Under the pieces are notes generated by a model. It did not search any database and had not been told where the DNA came from. It saw only the letters and a list, made by a program, of their open reading frames with translations. The translations under genes and the position numbers were made by a program. Positions 4,702 through 19,927 of a stretch of 34,274 nt of DNA are shown here, one piece after another. Origin of the DNA: a virus; the IMG/VR virus record IMGVR_UViG_3300030419_002996, positions 1 through 34,274 of that record. One strand, written 5' to 3'. Within the stretch, counting starts at the first letter, position 1; every line of letters starts with the position of its first letter.

Positions 4702-5403
4702 ATGGCAACAAAAACAGTAGATAAATGGGGAATGGTAGGATACAGTGGTACTACTTCTTTTGCTAATACTAGAGGTGCATCCACAGGTAATACTTTATCA
4801 AATAATAATAGTACTGTTAATCAAAGATATATATACAGCTATTTTTTCTCAGGTGGTAAAGGTAGTGAATGGACACTTAATAGAGGATTTTTTGCTTTTG
4901 ATATGACAACTTATCAAACTGGTTATACAATATCAGATTTAAAATTTTATTATAAACCTACAACCTCAGGTACTGGAACATGTAAAGTAGCTATAGTTAA
5001 ATCAACAGCTCAAGGTGATGCCGATGCTAATTTAACAACAGCAGATTATGATAGTTTTGATGATAGTGTAACTTATGGTGCTACTGATGGCTCGTTGGTA
5101 TGGCAAGATAGTACAACTTTAAGTTATTTTGATTTAAATTCAACAGCAATAAGCGCTATAACTAGTACTGGTTATCTTAAATTATGTATATTAGAGTGGA
5201 CAAATGATTATAGTGATAACGCTCCTTTTGCTGCTACTAATGTTTCTGGTTATGGAAATGGTAGTATAGGAAATAGATTTTATTTAGATTTTACTGCTAC
5301 ACCCACAGGTTATGGAAATGATGTAATAGGTGTATCATCTTCTAATATTGACGAAGTAATTAGTGTGGCAAGTACTAGTATAAGTGAAATTATAGGAACA
5401 TAG
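4702..5403 (+). CDS. Fibre-associated beta-rich protein
   Basis: This 233-residue protein starts 3 bases after the fibre gene's stop, so the two are surely co-transcribed. Residues ~60-200 alternate hydrophobic strands with Gly/Ser/Asp turns (RGFFAFDMT, LKFYYKPT, LKLCILEW, RFYLDFTA). That looks like a single beta-sandwich of the carbohydrate-binding kind. The C-terminal ~30 residues contain a regular VIGVSS-NIDEVISVAS-SISEIIG pattern, which resembles short repeats at the ends of other phage tail proteins. The likely role is a distal fibre or carbohydrate-binding component. No catalytic motif is visible. The stop is TAG followed at once by an in-frame TAA. Confidence 0.75.
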   Translation: MATKTVDKWGMVGYSGTTSFANTRGASTGNTLSNNNSTVNQRYIYSYFFSGGKGSEWTLNRGFFAFDMTTYQTGYTISDLKFYYKPTTSGTGTCKVAIVKSTAQGDADANLTTADYDSFDDSVTYGATDGSLVWQDSTTLSYFDLNSTAISAITSTGYLKLCILEWTNDYSDNAPFAATNVSGYGNGSIGNRFYLDFTATPTGYGNDVIGVSSSNIDEVISVASTSISEIIGT

Positions 5404-5413
5404 TAAAAAATAT

Positions 5414-5428
5414 TAAAAACAAGTAATA
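5414..5428 (+). repeat. 15-base intergenic repeat, copy 1
   Basis: TAAAAACAAGTAATA occurs here and again, identically, at 29059-29073. Both copies lie a few bases after a TAG-TAA stop pair. Confidence 0.6.
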
Positions 5429-5443
5429 ATAAAAGATAAGGAT

Positions 5444-5477
5444 TAATAGGTATTTTTTTGGTTTACCTTACCTATTA
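5444..5477 (+). terminator. Candidate stem-loop after fibre operon
   Basis: The arms TAATAGGTA and TACCTATTA are perfectly complementary around a 16-base loop. The stem is AT-rich and no clear T-run follows directly, so termination would be weak. It could equally be part of a switch with the GGTTTAC/GTAAACC pair. Confidence 0.35.
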
Positions 5478-5526
5478 TATCTCAAGAACAATTAATAGTA
5501 AACCATAATTTTTTAAATTTATAACA

Positions 5527-5994
5527 ATGGCAGATAAATTTTTACAAATCAAAATGGATGGCGGTGATGTTTTACCACTTAAGATTGATGATGTGGTAAC
5601 TATCGCAGCAACGTCAGCTGCTGATGTATGTACCGTTACACTTACGTATAGTAATGGTGGTACTGCAGTTTTAACTTCAGTAACAGCAGGAGCGTCAGTA
5701 TATGTACCGCAAAGCGCTTCTAACCTTGTAGAGCTTAAAAGAACTCTATGGAACATCATTACAAATTCAGTATCTCAACCTTGGAACCAACCAATTTATG
5801 GTGGATCAGGATACGCATGGGATAACTGGAGCGTAGAGCCTGCGTCATCACAAGCTAGTTCTTACTATGCTCAAGATGCAAATCCAGCAGGATCTTCAAC
5901 TTTTGCAGCTAAGCAAGGAGGGATCTTACCGGGTAGAAACAATGCAGGAGCAGACGGAGATTGTACAGCTCTAATTTGGAGTACTATTACATAG
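5527..5994 (+). CDS. Probable abundant small virion protein
   Basis: This 155-residue protein is not recognised. The N-terminal ~75 residues (ADKFLQIKMDGGDVLPLKIDDVV onward) read as a small beta barrel with alternating Val/Thr/Leu. The C-terminal half is rich in Trp, Tyr, Ser and Ala and ends CTALIWSTIT. Codon use is visibly richer in G and C at third positions than in the adjacent fibre genes and resembles the major capsid gene, which suggests high expression. It has its own 123-base leader with inverted repeats. Likely roles are a head decoration or tail-tip protein. This rests on codon use and context, not on homology. The gene ends TAG-TAA. Confidence 0.65.
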   Translation: MADKFLQIKMDGGDVLPLKIDDVVTIAATSAADVCTVTLTYSNGGTAVLTSVTAGASVYVPQSASNLVELKRTLWNIITNSVSQPWNQPIYGGSGYAWDNWSVEPASSQASSYYAQDANPAGSSTFAAKQGGILPGRNNAGADGDCTALIWSTIT

Positions 5995-6030
5995 TAATAC
6001 AATTTTTATTAACCTTTAAAACCAAAACCA

Positions 6031-6321
6031 ATGACGTTTTATTATCAGACTAAAACGTGGAATAGTCAACCACAAATCACCGAAGAAACTATTAACTTAT
6101 GGAAACATCTTGCAGATAAATCAAACTGGAGGATAGTTCAATTAGCTAACGGTTTCTATCAAACCGAGTACCAAAGTCCTGAAAAGGAAGATACTTGGAT
6201 CGACGTAACCCGAAGAGAAACTATTGAAGGCGCAGAAACTGCTATTGATGGATCAGTAGCGCATTACGCTAAGAAAGTAGATTTCTTAAAAGGACCAAAA
6301 GTCGTGAAAACCTTTAAATAA
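6031..6321 (+). CDS. Small hypothetical protein upstream of groEL
   Basis: This 96-residue protein is not recognised. It reads as a mixed alpha/beta domain (FYYQTKTWNSQPQITEETIN, then NWRIVQLANGFYQTEYQSP) with a Lys-rich end. It has no membrane segment or signal peptide. A segment of about 25 residues beginning WRIVQL resembles a strand-turn-strand that could bind a partner. Codon use is similar to the preceding 155-residue gene, and the gene sits 19 bases before groEL, so the three are probably co-expressed. Confidence 0.65.
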   Translation: MTFYYQTKTWNSQPQITEETINLWKHLADKSNWRIVQLANGFYQTEYQSPEKEDTWIDVTRRETIEGAETAIDGSVAHYAKKVDFLKGPKVVKTFK

Positions 6322-6340
6322 AATTAAATCAATTTGAATT

Positions 6341-7891
6341 ATGTCCAATAAACTTGTGAAACATCTTAACTTCGGTCAAGATGCAAAAGATCAAATATTT
6401 GAAGGGATAAATAAACTCACTAAAGCTGTTAGCTCCACACTCGGAGCTAGCGGCAAGTGTGTTATCCTAGAAGATGATCAAGGAAAACCCATTATCACCA
6501 AAGATGGTGTAACTGTTGCTAATTCAATAGTATTATTTGATGCTGTTGAAAATATGGGCGCAACATTAATAAAAGAAGCTGCAAGAAAAACTGTAGAAGA
6601 AGCCGGTGATGGTACTACTACAGCTACAGTATTAGCTCAAGCTATATTGCAAGAAGCAGATAAAAAAGAAATTAATACTAGACAATTAAAAGAGGGTATT
6701 AATTCAGGTGTAAAAAAAGTTATAGATTATTTAGAATCCATTAAAATTGAAGTCACTGGCGATATGATTGATCAAGTTGCCACTATTTCTGCAAATAATG
6801 ACCAAGAATTAGGTAAACTAATTGGAGGTGCATTTAAAAGTGTAGACAAAACAGGTGTCGTAATAATGGAAGAATCTAGAGATTTAACTTCATCCGTTAA
6901 AATTATTGATGGAATGCAATTTGATAGACCTTTAAAGAGTTTACATTTTGCTACAGATCAAAATAAAGGCGTTGCCGAATTAAATAATCCTCTTGTTCTA
7001 GTAGTTGAATCTAAAATAGAAAACATACGAAAAATACAGAATGTATTAGAGTATGCTATAAAAAATAAAAAAGCCTTATTTATAATTGCTGATGTAGAAC
7101 CTCAAGTTTTAGCAGCGCTAGCAATGAATAAAATGAAAGGCAATATTAAGGTATGTATTGTAGATGCTCCAGTATATGGATTTACTAAAAAAGAAAAGTT
7201 AAATGATTTAGCTTTAATGACTGGCGCTACTGTTATAAATGAAGATTTAGGAGATGATATGGATTTAATAGATCCAAATTATTTGGGAAAAGCTAAGAAA
7301 ATAATAAGTAATAAAGAAAACACTATAATACAAGTAGAGGAAACTCCAGAAGCAGTAAAGGATTTGATTGAAGAAATTCAAGCAAAACAAGCCGTAGAAA
7401 AAGTTCCTGCCTATAAAATAGCACATGAAAAAAGACTTGCGTTATTAGCTGCAAAAGTAGCCGTGGTTAAAGTAGGTGCTAGCTCTGAAATTGAATTAAA
7501 AGAAAAGAGTGATAGAGTCGAAGATGCTATTTGTGCTACAAAAGCCGCGATAAAAGAAGGTATAGTTCCAGGTGGTGGTATTGCATTGTTAAATGCCGCT
7601 GAGTATATAGAAGAAAACAATGAAGCTGAAAAGATTTTAGCTAGAGCAATAATTTCTCCTTATAAAATTATACTTGAAAATGCTGGATTAGAGCCAAAAT
7701 TACCTAAGAAACATGGTTTTGGTATCGACGTGGTTACGGGAAATATGGTAAATATGATCGATAATGGTATAATTGATCCATTATTGGTAACAAAAAGCGC
7801 ATTATTAAATGCGGCTTCTGTAGCAAGTACTATTTTATCAACTGATTGTATAATAAATAATATTAGATTACATGAGGGCGATAGGAAATAA
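6341..7891 (+). CDS. groEL: Phage-encoded GroEL chaperonin
   Basis: This 516-residue group I chaperonin folds proteins inside a ring capped by GroES. ATP-site signatures are intact: ITKDG with Asp55 (E. coli Asp52), GDGTTTATVLAQA with Asp90 (E. coli Asp87), RVEDA with Asp395 (E. coli Asp398), and PGGG near 410-413. The N-terminal TLGASGK replaces the usual TLGPKGR. The apical domain keeps GMQFDR (191-196) but then diverges (PLKSLHFATD), so the E. coli substrate-contact residues Tyr199 and Tyr203 become Leu and His. The protein is about 30 residues shorter than E. coli GroEL and lacks the Gly-Gly-Met tail, ending RLHEGDRK. It overlaps groES by 20 bases. It sits in the virion-protein region, which suggests it folds phage proteins. 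All domains are complete, so this is not a pseudogene. Confidence 0.97.
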   Translation: MSNKLVKHLNFGQDAKDQIFEGINKLTKAVSSTLGASGKCVILEDDQGKPIITKDGVTVANSIVLFDAVENMGATLIKEAARKTVEEAGDGTTTATVLAQAILQEADKKEINTRQLKEGINSGVKKVIDYLESIKIEVTGDMIDQVATISANNDQELGKLIGGAFKSVDKTGVVIMEESRDLTSSVKIIDGMQFDRPLKSLHFATDQNKGVAELNNPLVLVVESKIENIRKIQNVLEYAIKNKKALFIIADVEPQVLAALAMNKMKGNIKVCIVDAPVYGFTKKEKLNDLALMTGATVINEDLGDDMDLIDPNYLGKAKKIISNKENTIIQVEETPEAVKDLIEEIQAKQAVEKVPAYKIAHEKRLALLAAKVAVVKVGASSEIELKEKSDRVEDAICATKAAIKEGIVPGGGIALLNAAEYIEENNEAEKILARAIISPYKIILENAGLEPKLPKKHGFGIDVVTGNMVNMIDNGIIDPLLVTKSALLNAASVASTILSTDCIINNIRLHEGDRK

Positions 7892-8577: not shown

Positions 8578-8943
8578 ATGTTCTCATTATTAGGAAAAAC
8601 CTTAGGTAAAAAAGGTGGTAGAAAATTCGCAAAGAGATTAGGTATCACAAAATTACAACAAACAGTTGATGCTACTCAAGAAGAAGTTAAAGGTATAGCC
8701 GCTGCTGTTGCTCAATTAGGTTCAGGTGGAATTGAAGAAGAAATAGATTCTACTCCAGAAGCAGATTATGCTGGACCAGATATTGATCCAACAGGGATAG
8801 CTGCACCAACTTTTACTCCTGGAAGTAAAGAAGCAGCGATGGGAATGTTTGGTAAACCGGTAGAAGGATCTTTTGATAGAGAAATGTCAACTAACGCTGC
8901 TGCAGGAAATGTAGTACCAGAAGATATAAACGAACTAATATAA
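8578..8943 (+). CDS. Small hypothetical protein, acidic C-terminus
   Basis: This 121-residue protein is not recognised. The first 30 residues are strongly basic and Gly-rich (GKTLGKKGGRKFAKRLGITK). Then comes a short helix with Gln/Ala, then an acidic, Pro/Gly-rich disordered tail (EEEIDSTPEADYAGPDIDP). The charge split suggests a nucleic-acid or scaffold contact at the N-terminus. It has no membrane segment and does not carry the SRKSSPLN tag of its downstream neighbours, although FDREMSTNAAAG near the end is somewhat similar in composition. It starts 2 bases after the previous stop. Confidence 0.65.
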   Translation: MFSLLGKTLGKKGGRKFAKRLGITKLQQTVDATQEEVKGIAAAVAQLGSGGIEEEIDSTPEADYAGPDIDPTGIAAPTFTPGSKEAAMGMFGKPVEGSFDREMSTNAAAGNVVPEDINELI

Positions 8944-8950
8944 AACAATT

Positions 8951-9184
8951 ATGAAAAATCACAAATCACCACTTAAAATGATAGAAGACAAGGCTCACAC
9001 GCATGCTTCTAAAAATAATTCTGTAGGAATAGTTGGAGAATCTCAAATATGGGACGGTCCACTAGATCAAGATGGAAGACCTCATGGTAAAGGTTGGAGC
9101 GCTGGTATCCACGGAATGAAATTAAAATTAGGGGCAGTTCCATATTCTGGAAGTTTGCCTATAACACAAAAAGCAAAAGGATAA
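8951..9184 (+). CDS. Small hypothetical protein, N-terminal KSPL motif
   Basis: This 77-residue protein begins MKNHKSPLKMIEDKAHTH and carries the shortest form (KSPL) of the tag shared by the next genes. The middle has SQIWDGPLDQDGRPHGKGW, a Gly/Asp turn-rich segment a little like a MORN repeat, and the end is basic. It contains no Cys. The function is unknown. Its place at the head of the tagged block argues that it belongs to the same set. Confidence 0.6.
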   Translation: MKNHKSPLKMIEDKAHTHASKNNSVGIVGESQIWDGPLDQDGRPHGKGWSAGIHGMKLKLGAVPYSGSLPITQKAKG

Positions 9185-9188
9185 TAAA

Positions 9189-9629
9189 ATGACATATATA
9201 CAAGGAAAAAATCCACTATCAAGAAAAAATTCTCCTTTAAACGCAAACAATCCGTTTAAAAGAGTGTCTCCACTTAATGAAGTTGCTTTAGATCCTGCAG
9301 ATGATGCACCAATTTCTCCACAAAATGCGGAGTTATTAGCTCAAATGGATACTACTGAAGGAGGAACTATGCCTCAAGATACTAGTATTGAACCAGGAGA
9401 TAAAGACTATGAAGCTATGTCTAGAAAATCTTCACCATTAAATGAACATGATGAAAATAAAATAGCTGAATTAACTAGCAAAATTGATGCAAGAGCAAAA
9501 GAACTAACAGGCGGTGATCCACAGTCTCGTGTAGATCCTTTTGAAGATGAGCAAATAAAACAATGGATTGCAGCAAGAACAGCAGAGAAAGCAAAACATA
9601 AAGAAGAAAAACCAAAAGAAGAAGAATAA
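9189..9629 (+). CDS. Tagged small protein with three SPLN motifs
   Basis: This 146-residue hydrophilic protein, probably largely disordered and with a Lys/Glu-rich tail, has three copies of a short motif: SRKNSPLN (residues 11-18), RVSPLN (25-30) and SRKSSPLN (78-85). A weaker PISPQN lies at 41-46. The N-terminus MTYIQGKNPLSRK parallels the starts of the genes at 11115 and 11337. The region from 87 to 125 could form a helix (KIAELTSKIDARAKELTGG). No enzyme motif is seen. The spacing of motifs suggests several docking sites on one chain. The gene ends with a run of in-frame TAA codons. Confidence 0.7.
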   Translation: MTYIQGKNPLSRKNSPLNANNPFKRVSPLNEVALDPADDAPISPQNAELLAQMDTTEGGTMPQDTSIEPGDKDYEAMSRKSSPLNEHDENKIAELTSKIDARAKELTGGDPQSRVDPFEDEQIKQWIAARTAEKAKHKEEKPKEEE

Positions 9630-9647
9630 TAATAATAAATAAGTAAA

Positions 9648-10598
9648 ATGATAATAAATCCAAGCACGTTAACAAATGGATTAAGAGTTGTACCTAGCGA
9701 TAAAATAAATATTCCAGGTTCAACTTTAAGATTCTCTGGAACGGCAAATGTTAATACAACTAATAAATTGGTTGATACAACAAGACCGTTACAAATAAAT
9801 CCTACAAGAGGTAGTTTCGTACAATCTTTGGAAGCAGCGCCAAGTCAGGGTCAAGTTGCGGATCAAGGAGTACAGGTAGGTGATGTAGTATATAACACAA
9901 CTGACTGGACTGTAGGACTTGTTAAAGCAGTTGATAGTGCTACTACTTTAAGCATTATGGACGCTGATGGTGCGGATTTAGATTTATTTCCTGATGGAAA
10001 TGAAACTTATTCAATTTATCAAGCTAATGGTCTTTATGCCACTCCAATAGGAACTTATGGATTTAGATTAGTAGCTGGTGTAACTTTGTCTAATTTAAGT
10101 GCTAATACTTCAGCTGGTTTTAATAACGCAGTAGATCAAGCAATTGTTCCATCAGGAGGGACTTATATAGATGCAATGACACCAGGACGAGGAGCTACAT
10201 TTACAGCAACAACTGTTGGTGGTGAAGTAACGAATGTAAAAGTAGTTGCAGTAAGCACTTATAGTTTAACAGATTTAGCAGGTTTAACTATTGTATTTAA
10301 TACAGCAGCTATTGAAACAGCTTTCGGTGGTGGTGGTACAGGTGCTGTAACAGTTACAATTGGCAATGTAGCGTCAGGTGATGAAGCTGAAGATCTTCAA
10401 AGTAATTCAGTAGGTCAACCAAAAGCTTTCCAAATTTATAATGGAGATACTTCTGTTATTGATGTAGCAGTTATTACCGCAGGTGGTGATGATATATTAA
10501 TAAAAGACTTAGCAATAGGAACATTATCTCCTTTAGCAGTAACTAGAGTAAAATCTACAGGCACAACTGCTAGTAAAATAATATACGCATATTCATAA
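9648..10598 (+). CDS. Probable head decoration / virion surface protein with inserted module
   Basis: This is a 316-residue beta-rich protein. Residues ~65-120 hold a module with VGDVVYNTT and VKAVDSATTLSI. Residues 180-243 hold a Gly/Thr-rich inserted module (GRGATFTATTVGGE to GGGGTGAVTVTIGN). The C-terminal ~60 residues (FQIYNGDTSVIDVAVITAGG, then a tract ending GTTASKIIYAYS) match what I recall of small phage decoration proteins, whose ends read GTTA-x-x-I. It lacks the SPLN tag and is the only clearly structural gene inside the tagged block. A role on the capsid surface is inferred from the C-terminal resemblance. Confidence 0.65.
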   Translation: MIINPSTLTNGLRVVPSDKINIPGSTLRFSGTANVNTTNKLVDTTRPLQINPTRGSFVQSLEAAPSQGQVADQGVQVGDVVYNTTDWTVGLVKAVDSATTLSIMDADGADLDLFPDGNETYSIYQANGLYATPIGTYGFRLVAGVTLSNLSANTSAGFNNAVDQAIVPSGGTYIDAMTPGRGATFTATTVGGEVTNVKVVAVSTYSLTDLAGLTIVFNTAAIETAFGGGGTGAVTVTIGNVASGDEAEDLQSNSVGQPKAFQIYNGDTSVIDVAVITAGGDDILIKDLAIGTLSPLAVTRVKSTGTTASKIIYAYS

Positions 10599-10621
10599 AT
10601 TAATAATTAAAATAAAAAGAA

Positions 10622-11104
10622 ATGGCACATCCAATTCACAAACACATGCATACTCACATTACAAAACAAAATGTGAAAGCTGCAATTAGAGACGATAAGG
10701 CTCATATGGATTATCTTAAAAGAGATATTAAAGATGATCAAAAATTTCATGCAAAAGATAAAGACGCAAGACAATTACATGATGAGCAACACATTACTAA
10801 TCTAGCAAGAGATGTTAGAGATGATGAAAGAAAAGAGCATATATCAAGAAAATCTTCTCCCGCTAATGTAAAAATAAAAGAAGAAGACGTTATTCAAAGA
10901 GATGCTACAGAAGGTACTCAAGGAGGTTATGGTTCAGCTACAGAAGATAAAGAAGCTGTAAAAGCTTTTGATAAATCTTTAAGTAGAAAATCTTCTCCAT
11001 TTCATGCAGAAGAAGAAGTAAAAAAAGATACAGACAAAGAAGATAAGGAAAAAGCTGCTCAAGCCAAAGCTAAAGCAGATGCTTTAGAATTTTTAAAATC
11101 ATAA
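10622..11104 (+). CDS. Tagged His-rich helical protein
   Basis: This 160-residue protein starts MAHPIHKHMHTHITKQ, with five His among the first twelve residues, a possible metal or nucleic-acid contact. Residues 15-75 are highly charged and predicted helical (RDDKAHMDYLKRDIKDDQ, then RQLHDEQHITNLARDVRDD). Two tag copies follow: SRKSSPAN (75-82) and SRKSSPFH (121-128). The tail is Lys/Glu/Ala-rich. The Ser codons of the tags differ (TCA against AGT), so the motif is kept at protein level. The function is unknown, and the protein is probably a small virion-associated or assembly protein. Confidence 0.68.
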   Translation: MAHPIHKHMHTHITKQNVKAAIRDDKAHMDYLKRDIKDDQKFHAKDKDARQLHDEQHITNLARDVRDDERKEHISRKSSPANVKIKEEDVIQRDATEGTQGGYGSATEDKEAVKAFDKSLSRKSSPFHAEEEVKKDTDKEDKEKAAQAKAKADALEFLKS

Positions 11105-11114
11105 ATACATAATC

Positions 11115-11333
11115 ATGGCTTATACACAAAACAATCCTTTAACTCGTCAATCATCTCCATTATTAGCAAGCGGAAAAGGCTGTGCTAAATCAGAAGGTGG
11201 AAAAGGTTGTGTAGTACAACGAGGAGGAGAATGGGTTATTTTAAATAACAAAAAAGGCGGAGTATGGAGAGATGGTTTCTCTTCTAAAGAAGAAGCAGAT
11301 AAAGTACTAGCTGCATATCACGCTAATAGTTAA
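11115..11333 (+). CDS. Tagged small Cys/Gly protein
   Basis: This 72-residue protein begins MAYTQNNPLTRQSSPLLASG, with the tag at residues 10-17. A compact domain follows with GKGCAKSEGGKGCVV, GGEWVILNNKKGGVWRDGF and a final helix SSKEEADKVLAAYHA. From memory, this small domain occurs in many phages of marine Bacteroidota without a known function. The two Cys residues might bind metal or form a disulphide. The tag is joined to a folded domain here, which fits the tag being an addressing signal. Confidence 0.7.
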   Translation: MAYTQNNPLTRQSSPLLASGKGCAKSEGGKGCVVQRGGEWVILNNKKGGVWRDGFSSKEEADKVLAAYHANS

Positions 11334-11336
11334 ATC

Positions 11337-11780
11337 ATGCCTTATACACAGAGGTGGGGCATATCCCGTAGTGCTTTTCAATCTCCGTTAAATGATAATG
11401 GAAGAAGAACTATAATGGAAGAACCACTTGAAACAGAAGAACCAAGTTGGGCTGTACCAAAAGTAGATATTAGTGAAGCAGGTGATAAAGATATTATAGA
11501 ACAAAATAATGAAATATCTAATGCACAGAACGCAGGGTTTCTTTCTAATATACCAATGCCTGTATGGAAAGAAGGGACTAAACGTGCTATAAAAAGAGGT
11601 TTTGGAGCTCTAGCAGGAACAGCAGCTGGGGTTTTGGGAATGTTTTTAACTCCTCAAACAGCTCATGCTAGACCACCCGGAAGAATGATAGATGGAGAAT
11701 ATGTAAGAGACGATGATTTTAATCATCCAGCAAATCAAGAGAGATATAAAAACCTAGATTTATCTCCACCTAAAGATTAA
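11337..11780 (+). CDS. Tagged small protein with hydrophobic segment
   Basis: This 147-residue protein begins MPYTQRWGISRSAFQSPLND, a lengthened variant of the tag (10-19). Residues ~85-108 carry a basic stretch and then a hydrophobic Ala/Gly segment (FGALAGTAAGVLGMFLT) that could be one membrane-spanning or membrane-inserting helix. PQTAHARPPG follows. The rest is acidic and probably disordered. Because the hydrophobic part comes after the tag and is preceded by KRAIKRG, an inner-membrane or ejection role is possible. It was not recognised. Confidence 0.65.
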   Translation: MPYTQRWGISRSAFQSPLNDNGRRTIMEEPLETEEPSWAVPKVDISEAGDKDIIEQNNEISNAQNAGFLSNIPMPVWKEGTKRAIKRGFGALAGTAAGVLGMFLTPQTAHARPPGRMIDGEYVRDDDFNHPANQERYKNLDLSPPKD

Positions 11781-11786
11781 AATAAT

Positions 11787-12107
11787 ATGGCATTTAAATT
11801 AGAACCACCATTTAAAAAAACCTCTCCAGTTTACGAAAGAGAATTAGAACCAGGTTGCTTAGGAAAAGGTAACAAAAATGGTACTATATTAATAGATCCT
11901 GATCAATCTGAAGAAGCCAAGAAGAGTGTTATAGAACATGAAGAAATTCATATAGATCAAATTAGAAGAGGTGATTTATGGTATGATGATAAAAATGTAT
12001 ATTGGAAAGGAAAAAAGTACCCTAGAAGTAAAATGAAAGAAGGTAATCCAAATTTACCATGGGAAAAAGAAGCTTATAGTAAAACGGATTCTTTCGAAAA
12101 ATTATAA
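11787..12107 (+). CDS. Tagged HExxH metalloprotein (putative zinc peptidase)
   Basis: This 106-residue protein has a zincin-like active-site motif H51-E-E-I-H55, followed by IDQIRRGD. Acidic residues downstream in LPWEKEAY (E93, E95) could provide the third metal ligand. The chain is far shorter than usual zinc peptidases, so it may be a minimal protease, an inactive metal-binding remnant, or a chaperone-like protein. The N-terminus MAFKLEPPFKKTSPVYE carries a divergent form of the tag. A segment DKNVYWKGKKYPRSKM between the motif parts recurs, as I recall, in related phage proteins. Whether it cuts tagged neighbours or head proteins is unknown. Confidence 0.7.
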   Translation: MAFKLEPPFKKTSPVYERELEPGCLGKGNKNGTILIDPDQSEEAKKSVIEHEEIHIDQIRRGDLWYDDKNVYWKGKKYPRSKMKEGNPNLPWEKEAYSKTDSFEKL

Positions 12108-12772: not shown

Positions 12773-13036
12773 ATGACAAAAAAGAAAGAAGAAGTTAAAA
12801 AAATAACTCAAGAAGAATTAGACACAGTAAAAAATCAACAAAATAATATTCAAAAAATATTATTAGATCTTGGTGCTTTAGAAGCTAAAAAATTTGAAGT
12901 AAGTAGAACTTATGAAGATTTTGCAGCAAAATTAGAAGGAACTAAAAAAGAACTTGAAGAAAAATATGGTCAAGTTAATATTGATTTAACTGATGGTAGT
13001 TATACAGAAATAGAGAAAACAGAAACTGAAAAGTAA
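12773..13036 (+). CDS. Small coiled-coil protein
   Basis: This 87-residue, charged, mostly helical protein has a long coiled-coil stretch (QEELDTVKNQQNNIQKILLD, then KLEGTKKELEEKYG). A short beta-like end follows (VNIDLTDGSYTEIEKTE). The end motif, KYG-x-VNIDLxDGSYTEI, is one I recall as common in phages of this group, always near the structural module. It has no signal or membrane segment. It may be an assembly or spanin-like helper, although nothing in the sequence proves this. It follows a 60-base AT-rich spacer after the holin. Confidence 0.7.
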   Translation: MTKKKEEVKKITQEELDTVKNQQNNIQKILLDLGALEAKKFEVSRTYEDFAAKLEGTKKELEEKYGQVNIDLTDGSYTEIEKTETEK

Positions 13037-18715: not shown

Positions 18716-19927
18716 ATGTCAGAAAAACAAACAACTAAACCTGAGGTGGCTGAAGAAGTCAAATCAGAAGGTGGGGATATGAAAATGAAATCCAAACCTA
18801 AAATGAAAAAGTTTAATACTACTAAAGATGAACCTGTTAAAGTGGATTTAACTAAAGATCCAAATATTAAAACAGAAGAACCTATAAAAGTAGATTTAAC
18901 TAAAAAAGAAACTAAAACAGAAGACGATGCCATTCAAATCGGAGAAACAAAGGAGGTATCTGTGGAAAAACCATCCGGAGATAGCGCAGAGATGGGAGAA
19001 CCTTTACAAGAGTCCAACACGACTACTGAAGGGATTCATCCAATCCAAGAAATAACCAATGAAACTGATAATCTAGTAGTAGATGATGTTTCTACTCCTA
19101 ATATAACTTTACCAGAAAATGTAGAAAAGTTGGTTAACTTTATGGAGGAAACTGGTGGTACTGTAGAAGATTATGTAAGATTGAATGCAGATTATTCTAG
19201 TGTAAATGAAGAAGTTTTATTAAAAGAATATTATAGTAAAACTAAACCTCATTTAAATGAAGAAGAAATAAAATTCGTAATGGAAGAAAAATTCGATTAC
19301 GATGAAGAGATTGACGAAGAGCGAGACGTCAAAAGAAAAAAACTCGCTAAGAAAGAAGCGATTGCAGAAGCAAAGAACTTTTTGGAGGACATGAAAACTA
19401 AGTATTACGACGAAATCAAGTTGAGACCCGGCGTAACTCAAGAACAACAGAAAGCTATGGACTTCTTTAATCGCTATAATAATGAACAAGAAATAGCTAC
19501 GCAAAGGCATGAAAAATTCATTAACAACACTAAACAACTTTTTTCCAATGAATTCAAAGGTTTTGATTTCGAAGTTGGTGAAAAGAAATTTAGATACGGT
19601 GTTAAAGATCCCAGTGCTGTTGCAGAGAATCAATCTAATCTCAACAACTTCGTCGAGAAGTTCTTAGACAATGAAGGCAATGTTAAAGATACGAGAGGTT
19701 ATCATAAGGCTATGTATGCTGCACAGAATATAGATAAAATAGTAAATCATTTTTACGAGCAAGGTAAATCTGATGGGATTAAAACAGTTGTAGAAGGATC
19801 TAAAAACCCTACTACAGATACTCGTCAAACAGCGGGTGATATTAATCTTGGTGGATTTAAAGTTCGTGCTATAGATGGTGTAGATAGTTCTAAATTGAAA
19901 ATCAAACGAAGTAAATTTAACAATTAA
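18716..19927 (+). CDS. Probable capsid scaffolding protein
   Basis: This 403-residue, highly charged protein lies between portal and major capsid protein, the usual scaffold position. The first ~120 residues are Lys/Glu/Thr-rich and disordered and hold a short repeat, EPVKVDLTK (39-47) and EPIKVDLTK (55-63). Residues ~125-290 are helical and suit a coiled-coil core (EEEIKFVMEEKFDYDEEID). The last 30 residues (INLGGFKVRAIDGVDSSKLK) are basic, as in scaffolds that bind capsid protein. No protease motif was seen. Codons in 19290-19700 are richer in G and C than their surroundings. The leader ends ATTATATTATG, nearly the same as the leader at 21506. Confidence 0.72.
   Translation: MSEKQTTKPEVAEEVKSEGGDMKMKSKPKMKKFNTTKDEPVKVDLTKDPNIKTEEPIKVDLTKKETKTEDDAIQIGETKEVSVEKPSGDSAEMGEPLQESNTTTEGIHPIQEITNETDNLVVDDVSTPNITLPENVEKLVNFMEETGGTVEDYVRLNADYSSVNEEVLLKEYYSKTKPHLNEEEIKFVMEEKFDYDEEIDEERDVKRKKLAKKEAIAEAKNFLEDMKTKYYDEIKLRPGVTQEQQKAMDFFNRYNNEQEIATQRHEKFINNTKQLFSNEFKGFDFEVGEKKFRYGVKDPSAVAENQSNLNNFVEKFLDNEGNVKDTRGYHKAMYAAQNIDKIVNHFYEQGKSDGIKTVVEGSKNPTTDTRQTAGDINLGGFKVRAIDGVDSSKLKIKRSKFNN

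Follow-up and report, generated by a model that had tools for sequence, protein, structure and literature searches.

Six neighbouring small genes of an uncultured virus encode proteins that are otherwise unlike each other and share a short, address-like motif. They lie in the window, the whole stretch of 34,274 nucleotides analysed here (positions 1 to 34,274 of IMG/VR record IMGVR_UViG_3300030419_002996, a virus record of 36.6 kb). The motif reads S-P-[L/F/A/M]-[N/K], in most cases preceded by a basic residue 1–4 positions upstream, and it is well supported as a modular, protein-level tag in which both the serine and the proline are required. As judged from sequence, the tag may direct a variable set of small late proteins to one shared destination, for which the virion is the most likely choice, a reading that we hold with slightly less than even confidence. 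Literature searches for this motif or for a tag of such kind yielded nothing relevant, with incomplete search coverage, in agreement with the original prediction, which knew of no described tag of this sequence. The tag is likely to be previously undescribed.

All nine copies that had been quoted from the six genes were found at those genes, each on the plus strand. The first gene (8951-9184) encodes a 77-residue protein (MKNHKSPLKMIEDK...) whose copy is KSPLK (8963-8977). The second (9189-9629) encodes a mostly charged protein of 146 residues with the header MTYIQGKNPLSRKNSPLN and three copies, namely SRKNSPLN (9219-9242), RVSPLN (9261-9278), and SRKSSPLN (9420-9443). A His-rich protein of 160 residues (10622-11104), with the His-rich start described for it, holds two internal copies, SRKSSPAN (10844-10867) and SRKSSPFH (10982-11005). 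The 72-residue protein at 11115-11333 carries TRQSSPLL (11142-11165) in a disordered N-terminus (residues 1-21), followed by a small beta-beta-beta-alpha domain (GKGCAK...AYHANS). In its model the predicted local distance difference test score (pLDDT) is ~41 for the tag residues vs 73-84 for the domain, and a Foldseek search with this model gave no significant match. The 147-residue protein at 11337-11780 contains the reported hydrophobic segment and the copy SRSAFQSPLN (11364-11393); in relatives its header is conserved and the remainder divergent. The sixth protein (11787-12107, 106 residues) is a zinc-peptidase-like companion with an HExxH site (HEEIH, 11937-11951) and a downstream glutamate. 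Its N-terminus, MAFKLxPP..[ST]P[VI]Y, carries a variant form of the tag, here KKTSPVY (11814-11834). Four copies sit within the first 20 residues behind the start M-x-[YF]-x-[QL], as had been noted, and the copy of gene 8951 also lies there, without that start.

The nine SP-hydrophobic tags fall within only 708 residues, for which 2000 shuffles gave a mean of 0.84 and a maximum of 6. When R, K, or Q is demanded just upstream, the six genes still hold 9 copies against 0.36 expected (maximum 3). The remaining 28 predicted genes of the window (10,008 residues) are at background, with 11 copies vs 8.9 expected. The motif is thus no general feature of this genome, and the possibility that it occurs at the same rate in unrelated proteins did not hold. 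Regional composition is ruled out as the cause, as shuffling preserves composition and the holin, fibre, and coiled-coil families interspersed in the cluster show background levels only. The fibre-like protein encoded within the cluster (9648-10598, plus strand; phrog_12296), which is common to tag-less relatives, carries no tag and serves as an internal negative control.

The co-located carriers anticipated in other phages were also found. Related loci were fetched from IMG/VR by kinship with the portal, a conserved 148-residue protein, three tagged proteins, or the HExxH companion. In the syntenic clusters of 87 such loci, 816 distinct proteins contain 450 SP[LAFM] vs 72 expected, and the non-cluster proteins of the same loci contain 77 vs 55. 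At least three tag carriers occur in 47 of 69 distinct complete clusters. When 108 protein families were built on tag-masked sequences, 43 had the motif in at least half of their members, while shuffling predicts about 11 family-equivalents of carriers. The signature is specific: SP[LF]N occurs 93 times vs 2.0 expected (45-fold), SP[LF]K 44 times vs 3.0, and SP[AM]K 67 times vs 3.5. An excess of K, R, M, or H is seen upstream of SP, and position +3 is N, K, or H. Among the cluster proteins, SA[LF]N (4 vs 3.7), SA[LF]K, and TP[LF][NK] (1 vs 3.1) are at or below chance, and so are SPG, SPE, SPK (34 vs 35), and SPT. The looser forms SA[LF][NK], SM[LIF][NK], and TP[LF][NK] were dropped from the definition, their enrichment being nil or slight.

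As many as 198 of the 450 copies lie within the first 20 residues. SPL and SPF favour the N-terminus, and SPA is mainly internal and sometimes repeated, as in SPAKMGHESPAKMGHESPAEMH; a single protein may hold up to 8-10 copies. Loss of the tag is visible beside the six genes: the cluster protein encoded just upstream of 8951 (8578-8943, plus strand) has orthologues that begin with M(S)KSPLNF, for example MSKESPLNFL in locus L136, and the window copy has lost the tag. A family scan of 80 carriers recovered domains of unknown function only, together with one endolysin-family match not traced to its member. When a divergent SPLKQ carrier was used to scan viral_contigs, no relatives emerged, and locus L135 (record G009) was rejected as a relative, the common ground being a small domain only. 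In a tag-poor sub-clade, the form KSMIN appears (KTKSMINAVG, KDKSMINMAG, and IKSMINMKG; L058 at 2298 and 4227, L056 at 5356) and may be a drifted KSPLN. Additionally, a tagged protein of locus L222 (3404-4039, minus strand) ends in CKAAAKKKFKVWPSAYASGWGVRCTK, a small domain that matches PHROGs of far larger function-unknown proteins.

Conservation of the tag acts on the protein, as had been proposed from the differing serine codons. Codons at the S, P, L, A, N, and K positions follow the background usage of the same genes, serine being encoded by both TCN and AGY, and SPLN alone is written in 29 distinct 12-mers. Codon identity was also compared between tag copies that one locus carries in separate genes: S reaches 0.34 (expected 0.30), P 0.47 (0.47), and L/A 0.52 (0.48). 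Because codons match the background and synonymous sites are saturated between copies, the tag is kept at the protein level, and recent DNA duplication is ruled out. The residues do not vary freely in relatives. Among 50 proteins picked by the header M-x-[YF]-x-Q..NP[LIF]SR with SP ignored in the selection, SP occupies the aligned position in 45, and elsewhere these proteins share only 18% identity. Moreover, one header type (M-x-Y/F-x-Q…NPLSRKxSPLN) fronts domains of the GKGCAK, GKFT, and CTGDKFG types as well as long charged chains. The tag is absent from the interspersed and neighbouring holin, endolysin, and fibre proteins, and the holin, 9648 fibre-like, 12112, and 12773 families of the cluster are untagged. 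It is the modularity, the demand for both S and P, the codon saturation, the position before unrelated domains, and the absence from interspersed genes that make the tag address-like.

The original prediction had read the tag as an address, for example for capsid incorporation. The address part is well supported, and capsid incorporation gains independent, indirect support because one tagged family shares a small domain with Crassvirales cargo protein 1. This family is found in the relatives (66-72 residues, ...IKPENKGKFTAWAKKNGF...ANYAKNF), and its folded part, the GKFT domain, matches a Crassvirales protein domain. A profile built from tagged marine proteins alone found cr127_1 gp46 (2e-12), cr108_1 gp56 (4.5e-8), and jaberico gene 49 (1e-7); broadened with these three, it matched PhicrAss001 gp45 (L326 5988-8516) at 9e-6. 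The Pfam domain crAss_CARG1 is present in cr108_1 gp56 and PhicrAss001 gp45. The shared GKFT module corresponds to gp45 residues 378-424, immediately before segment 425-552, which is portal-bound in the structure obtained by cryo-electron microscopy (PMC10172136). The gp45 protein is found in virions by mass spectrometry and cryo-electron microscopy and has been proposed to be ejected (PMC10172136). In cr10_1, the GKFT domain is a separate gene of 75 residues (gp63, L324 7941-8168) between the portal/peptidase and the scaffold/major head genes; gp63 bears the annotation 'transcriptional regulator'. The match to Crassvirales is the sole independent pointer to virion cargo, and an indirect one.

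If the tag directs proteins to the virion, it would act as a short linear address motif of variable small late-region proteins, placed at their flexible N-terminus or repeated along disordered segments. It may bind a single common phage partner during assembly, and the portal, capsid, scaffold, universal 12773 protein, and HExxH protein are candidates for this partner. Through such binding the tagged proteins would become cargo inside or on the virion, and could then be delivered with the DNA or aid head maturation. The 8951 and 12773 families occur in 69 of 69 tagged clusters and were not found in tag-less relatives. The terminase, scaffold, capsid protein, GroEL/GroES, and 12112 are common to at least one tag-less relative, so that the receptor would be either a clade-specific gene (12773 or HExxH) or a site gained on a common structural protein. 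The untagged 12773 protein (12773-13036, plus strand; 87 residues) is probably a coiled coil and can be regarded as a candidate receptor.

Several facts weigh against a virion destination. The putative internal ejection protein (31068) and the scaffold lack the tag, and the number of tags ranges from 0 to 16 among close relatives. The crass proteins carry the GKFT domain without an SP tag, and domain sharing is no proof of cargo loading. Furthermore, the GKFT domain is also found within large phage proteins of unknown role, and no GKFT protein occurs among the window proteins. A bolder extension, which we regard as doubtful, is that SP-hydrophobic-N/K is a general sorting code read by a dedicated receptor that the phage encodes, with the HExxH companion perhaps trimming the motif. 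A portable tag would then allow free swapping of cargo, and tagged metavirome genes would be recognisable as delivered cargo.

The main rival, because the HExxH companion tracks the tag, is that the motif marks processing. The 11787 protein would act as a zinc peptidase directed at SP-hydrophobic sites, removing N-terminal propeptides or dividing multi-copy chains at maturation, and the [ST]P[VI]Y at its own N-terminus would be an autoprocessing site. We consider this unlikely on the sequence evidence. The HExxH gene is present in 67 of the 69 tagged clusters, the two without it having 0-1 tags, and it was not found in the partial records of the tag-less cultured Manatee, elemo, Cellulophaga, and Gundel phages. 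Within the 11787 family (A1), HExxH is retained in 68 of 68 members, a WExEAY motif is near-invariant, and E93 (invariant) and E95 (near-invariant) provide the downstream glutamate ligand of the gluzincin type. Among those window proteins that were scanned with Pfam, no further protease came to light. The predicted model (pLDDT 77) bears a weak likeness to small zinc peptidases, with Z scores of 6.3 for IrrE, 5.2 for abylysin, and 4.8 for Wss1, and Foldseek matches are weak (E of at least 0.12). The HExxH helix and conserved downstream glutamate are shared with the minigluzincins and IrrE-Wss1 peptidases (4jiu, 4qhg, 3dte; Z 5-6), from which 11787 differs in having no sequence match in the PDB when searched with an HExxH profile. 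A zinc-peptidase-like fold is weakly predicted, and the protein may itself be cargo. The co-distribution is, however, confounded by ancestry, as the tag is followed just as closely by 8951 and 12773. Moreover, only ~15 residues would be shed by a small folded carrier whose single tag is N-terminal, and cutting of repeats such as SPAKMGHESPAKMGHESPAEMH would leave 8-mers.

An equally unlikely view is that the tag docks its carriers to a non-virion hub in the infected cell, such as the phage chaperonin, the lysis complex, or a host protein, and gathers effectors at one place. The cluster adjoins the GroEL/GroES, holin, and endolysin genes, and multi-copy motifs fit multivalent docking; however, GroEL/GroES also occur in tag-less relatives (Manatee, elemo), and the holin and endolysin are themselves untagged. 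Much less probable is that the shared header mainly reflects ancestry through recent duplication or end-shuffling of genes in a recombination hot spot, and that it has little function. Paralogous headers do stand adjacent in one genome (e.g. L154 at 2861, 3382, and 5141), and gene content is highly variable. Yet synonymous sites are saturated between copies, the motif is also internal and repeated, the substitutes SA and TP are not enriched, and S and P are kept while the flanks and the rest fall to 12-22% identity. Ancestry as the only explanation is already largely refuted by codon saturation and motif specificity. The least probable view, to which we give hardly any weight, is that of an SPKK-like minor-groove DNA-binding motif on small proteins that coat DNA. 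Many carriers are slightly basic (+0.046 vs +0.004 per residue), and the SPAK/SPMK repeats resemble histone-H1-like tails. The residue after P is, however, L, F, A, or M rather than K or R, and SPLN, SPAE, and SPVY have no basic pair. The SPKK motif proper (S/T-P plus two basic residues) is ruled out by the SPK count, which shows no enrichment.

Parallels to a virion address are known from other systems. The internal proteins IPI-III and Alt of phage T4 carry a short N-terminal capsid-targeting sequence on unlike, variable small proteins (PMC9026906). The present tag resembles it as a short peptide shared at the N-terminus by several unlike proteins of one phage, with variable gene content behind a constant address. 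It differs in sequence and in being also internal and multi-copy (252 of 450 copies beyond residue 20). The T4 sequence directs its protein to the prohead core and is cut by the prohead protease; no prohead protease was recognised among the scanned window proteins, and the present tag is known from genes alone. By analogy, it would work like the T4 sequence, and it is not a member of that system. The likeness to PhicrAss001 gp45 lies in the GKFT domain, which in gp45 is the module adjoining the portal-binding domain and in one tagged family of the relatives, outside the window, stands alone as a 66-72-residue protein with an SPF tag; the crass proteins are untagged. The CARG1 domain (PF25725) is present only in the crass proteins, the tagged GKFT proteins having no Pfam match. 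Encapsulin cargo-loading peptides are short linear peptides, usually C-terminal, that load unlike proteins into a shell. They share this short linear form on unlike proteins, and they are unrelated in sequence to the present tag, which is N-terminal and internal and belongs to a tailed phage. In the window, all nine copies are more than 30 residues away from the C-terminus of their protein.

Small function-unknown proteins fill marine phage genomes, and nothing shows which of them are packaged, injected, or structural. The tag groups dozens of such families and provides a sequence handle on a common fate. If they are virion cargo, the tag would join that of T4 as a second capsid-address system, of independent evolutionary origin. 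It could then help to pick out delivered anti-defence or takeover proteins in metaviromes, and serve for the loading of foreign proteins into phages of Bacteroidota.

The terminase (14093), the portal (16304), and a virion structural protein (19939; presumed major capsid protein) have relatives in Cellulophaga phi38:1 and phi13:2 and in Flavobacterium elemo phages; the terminase is additionally related to that of Tenacibaculum Gundel phages. Judged by these relationships, the tagged phages are podovirus-like phages of Bacteroidota and form a clade of marine phages. The cultured relatives phi38:1, phi13:2, elemo, Gundel, and Manatee have no tag array, and none was seen in the region read of Tenacibaculum phage pT24, which carries a distant HExxH relative. 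The tagged genes lie downstream of GroEL/GroES and the conserved 148-residue protein, and upstream of the holin, small conserved genes, and terminase. Two near-complete relatives, G001 and G007, hold further tagged genes past the tail module. The putative scaffold (18716-19927) has a C-terminus (...SSKLKIKxxKFN) that is strongly conserved among relatives; it was ruled out as a tag, the conserved ...KLKIK..KFN being without SP. Contigs of this phage group (L237-L241) have been binned into metagenome-assembled genomes of Woesearchaeota, Euryarchaeota, Aliivibrio, Sphingobacteriales, and Alphaproteobacteria, which is probably contamination. In G004, the record of locus L192, the portal gene (4862-7224) is broken by several stops and frame changes, and this record is degraded or badly sequenced. 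Overlapping gene pairs are kept in several relatives, namely 13265-13870/13815-14093 (~56 bases) and GroEL/GroES at 6341-7891/7872-8132 (20 bases).

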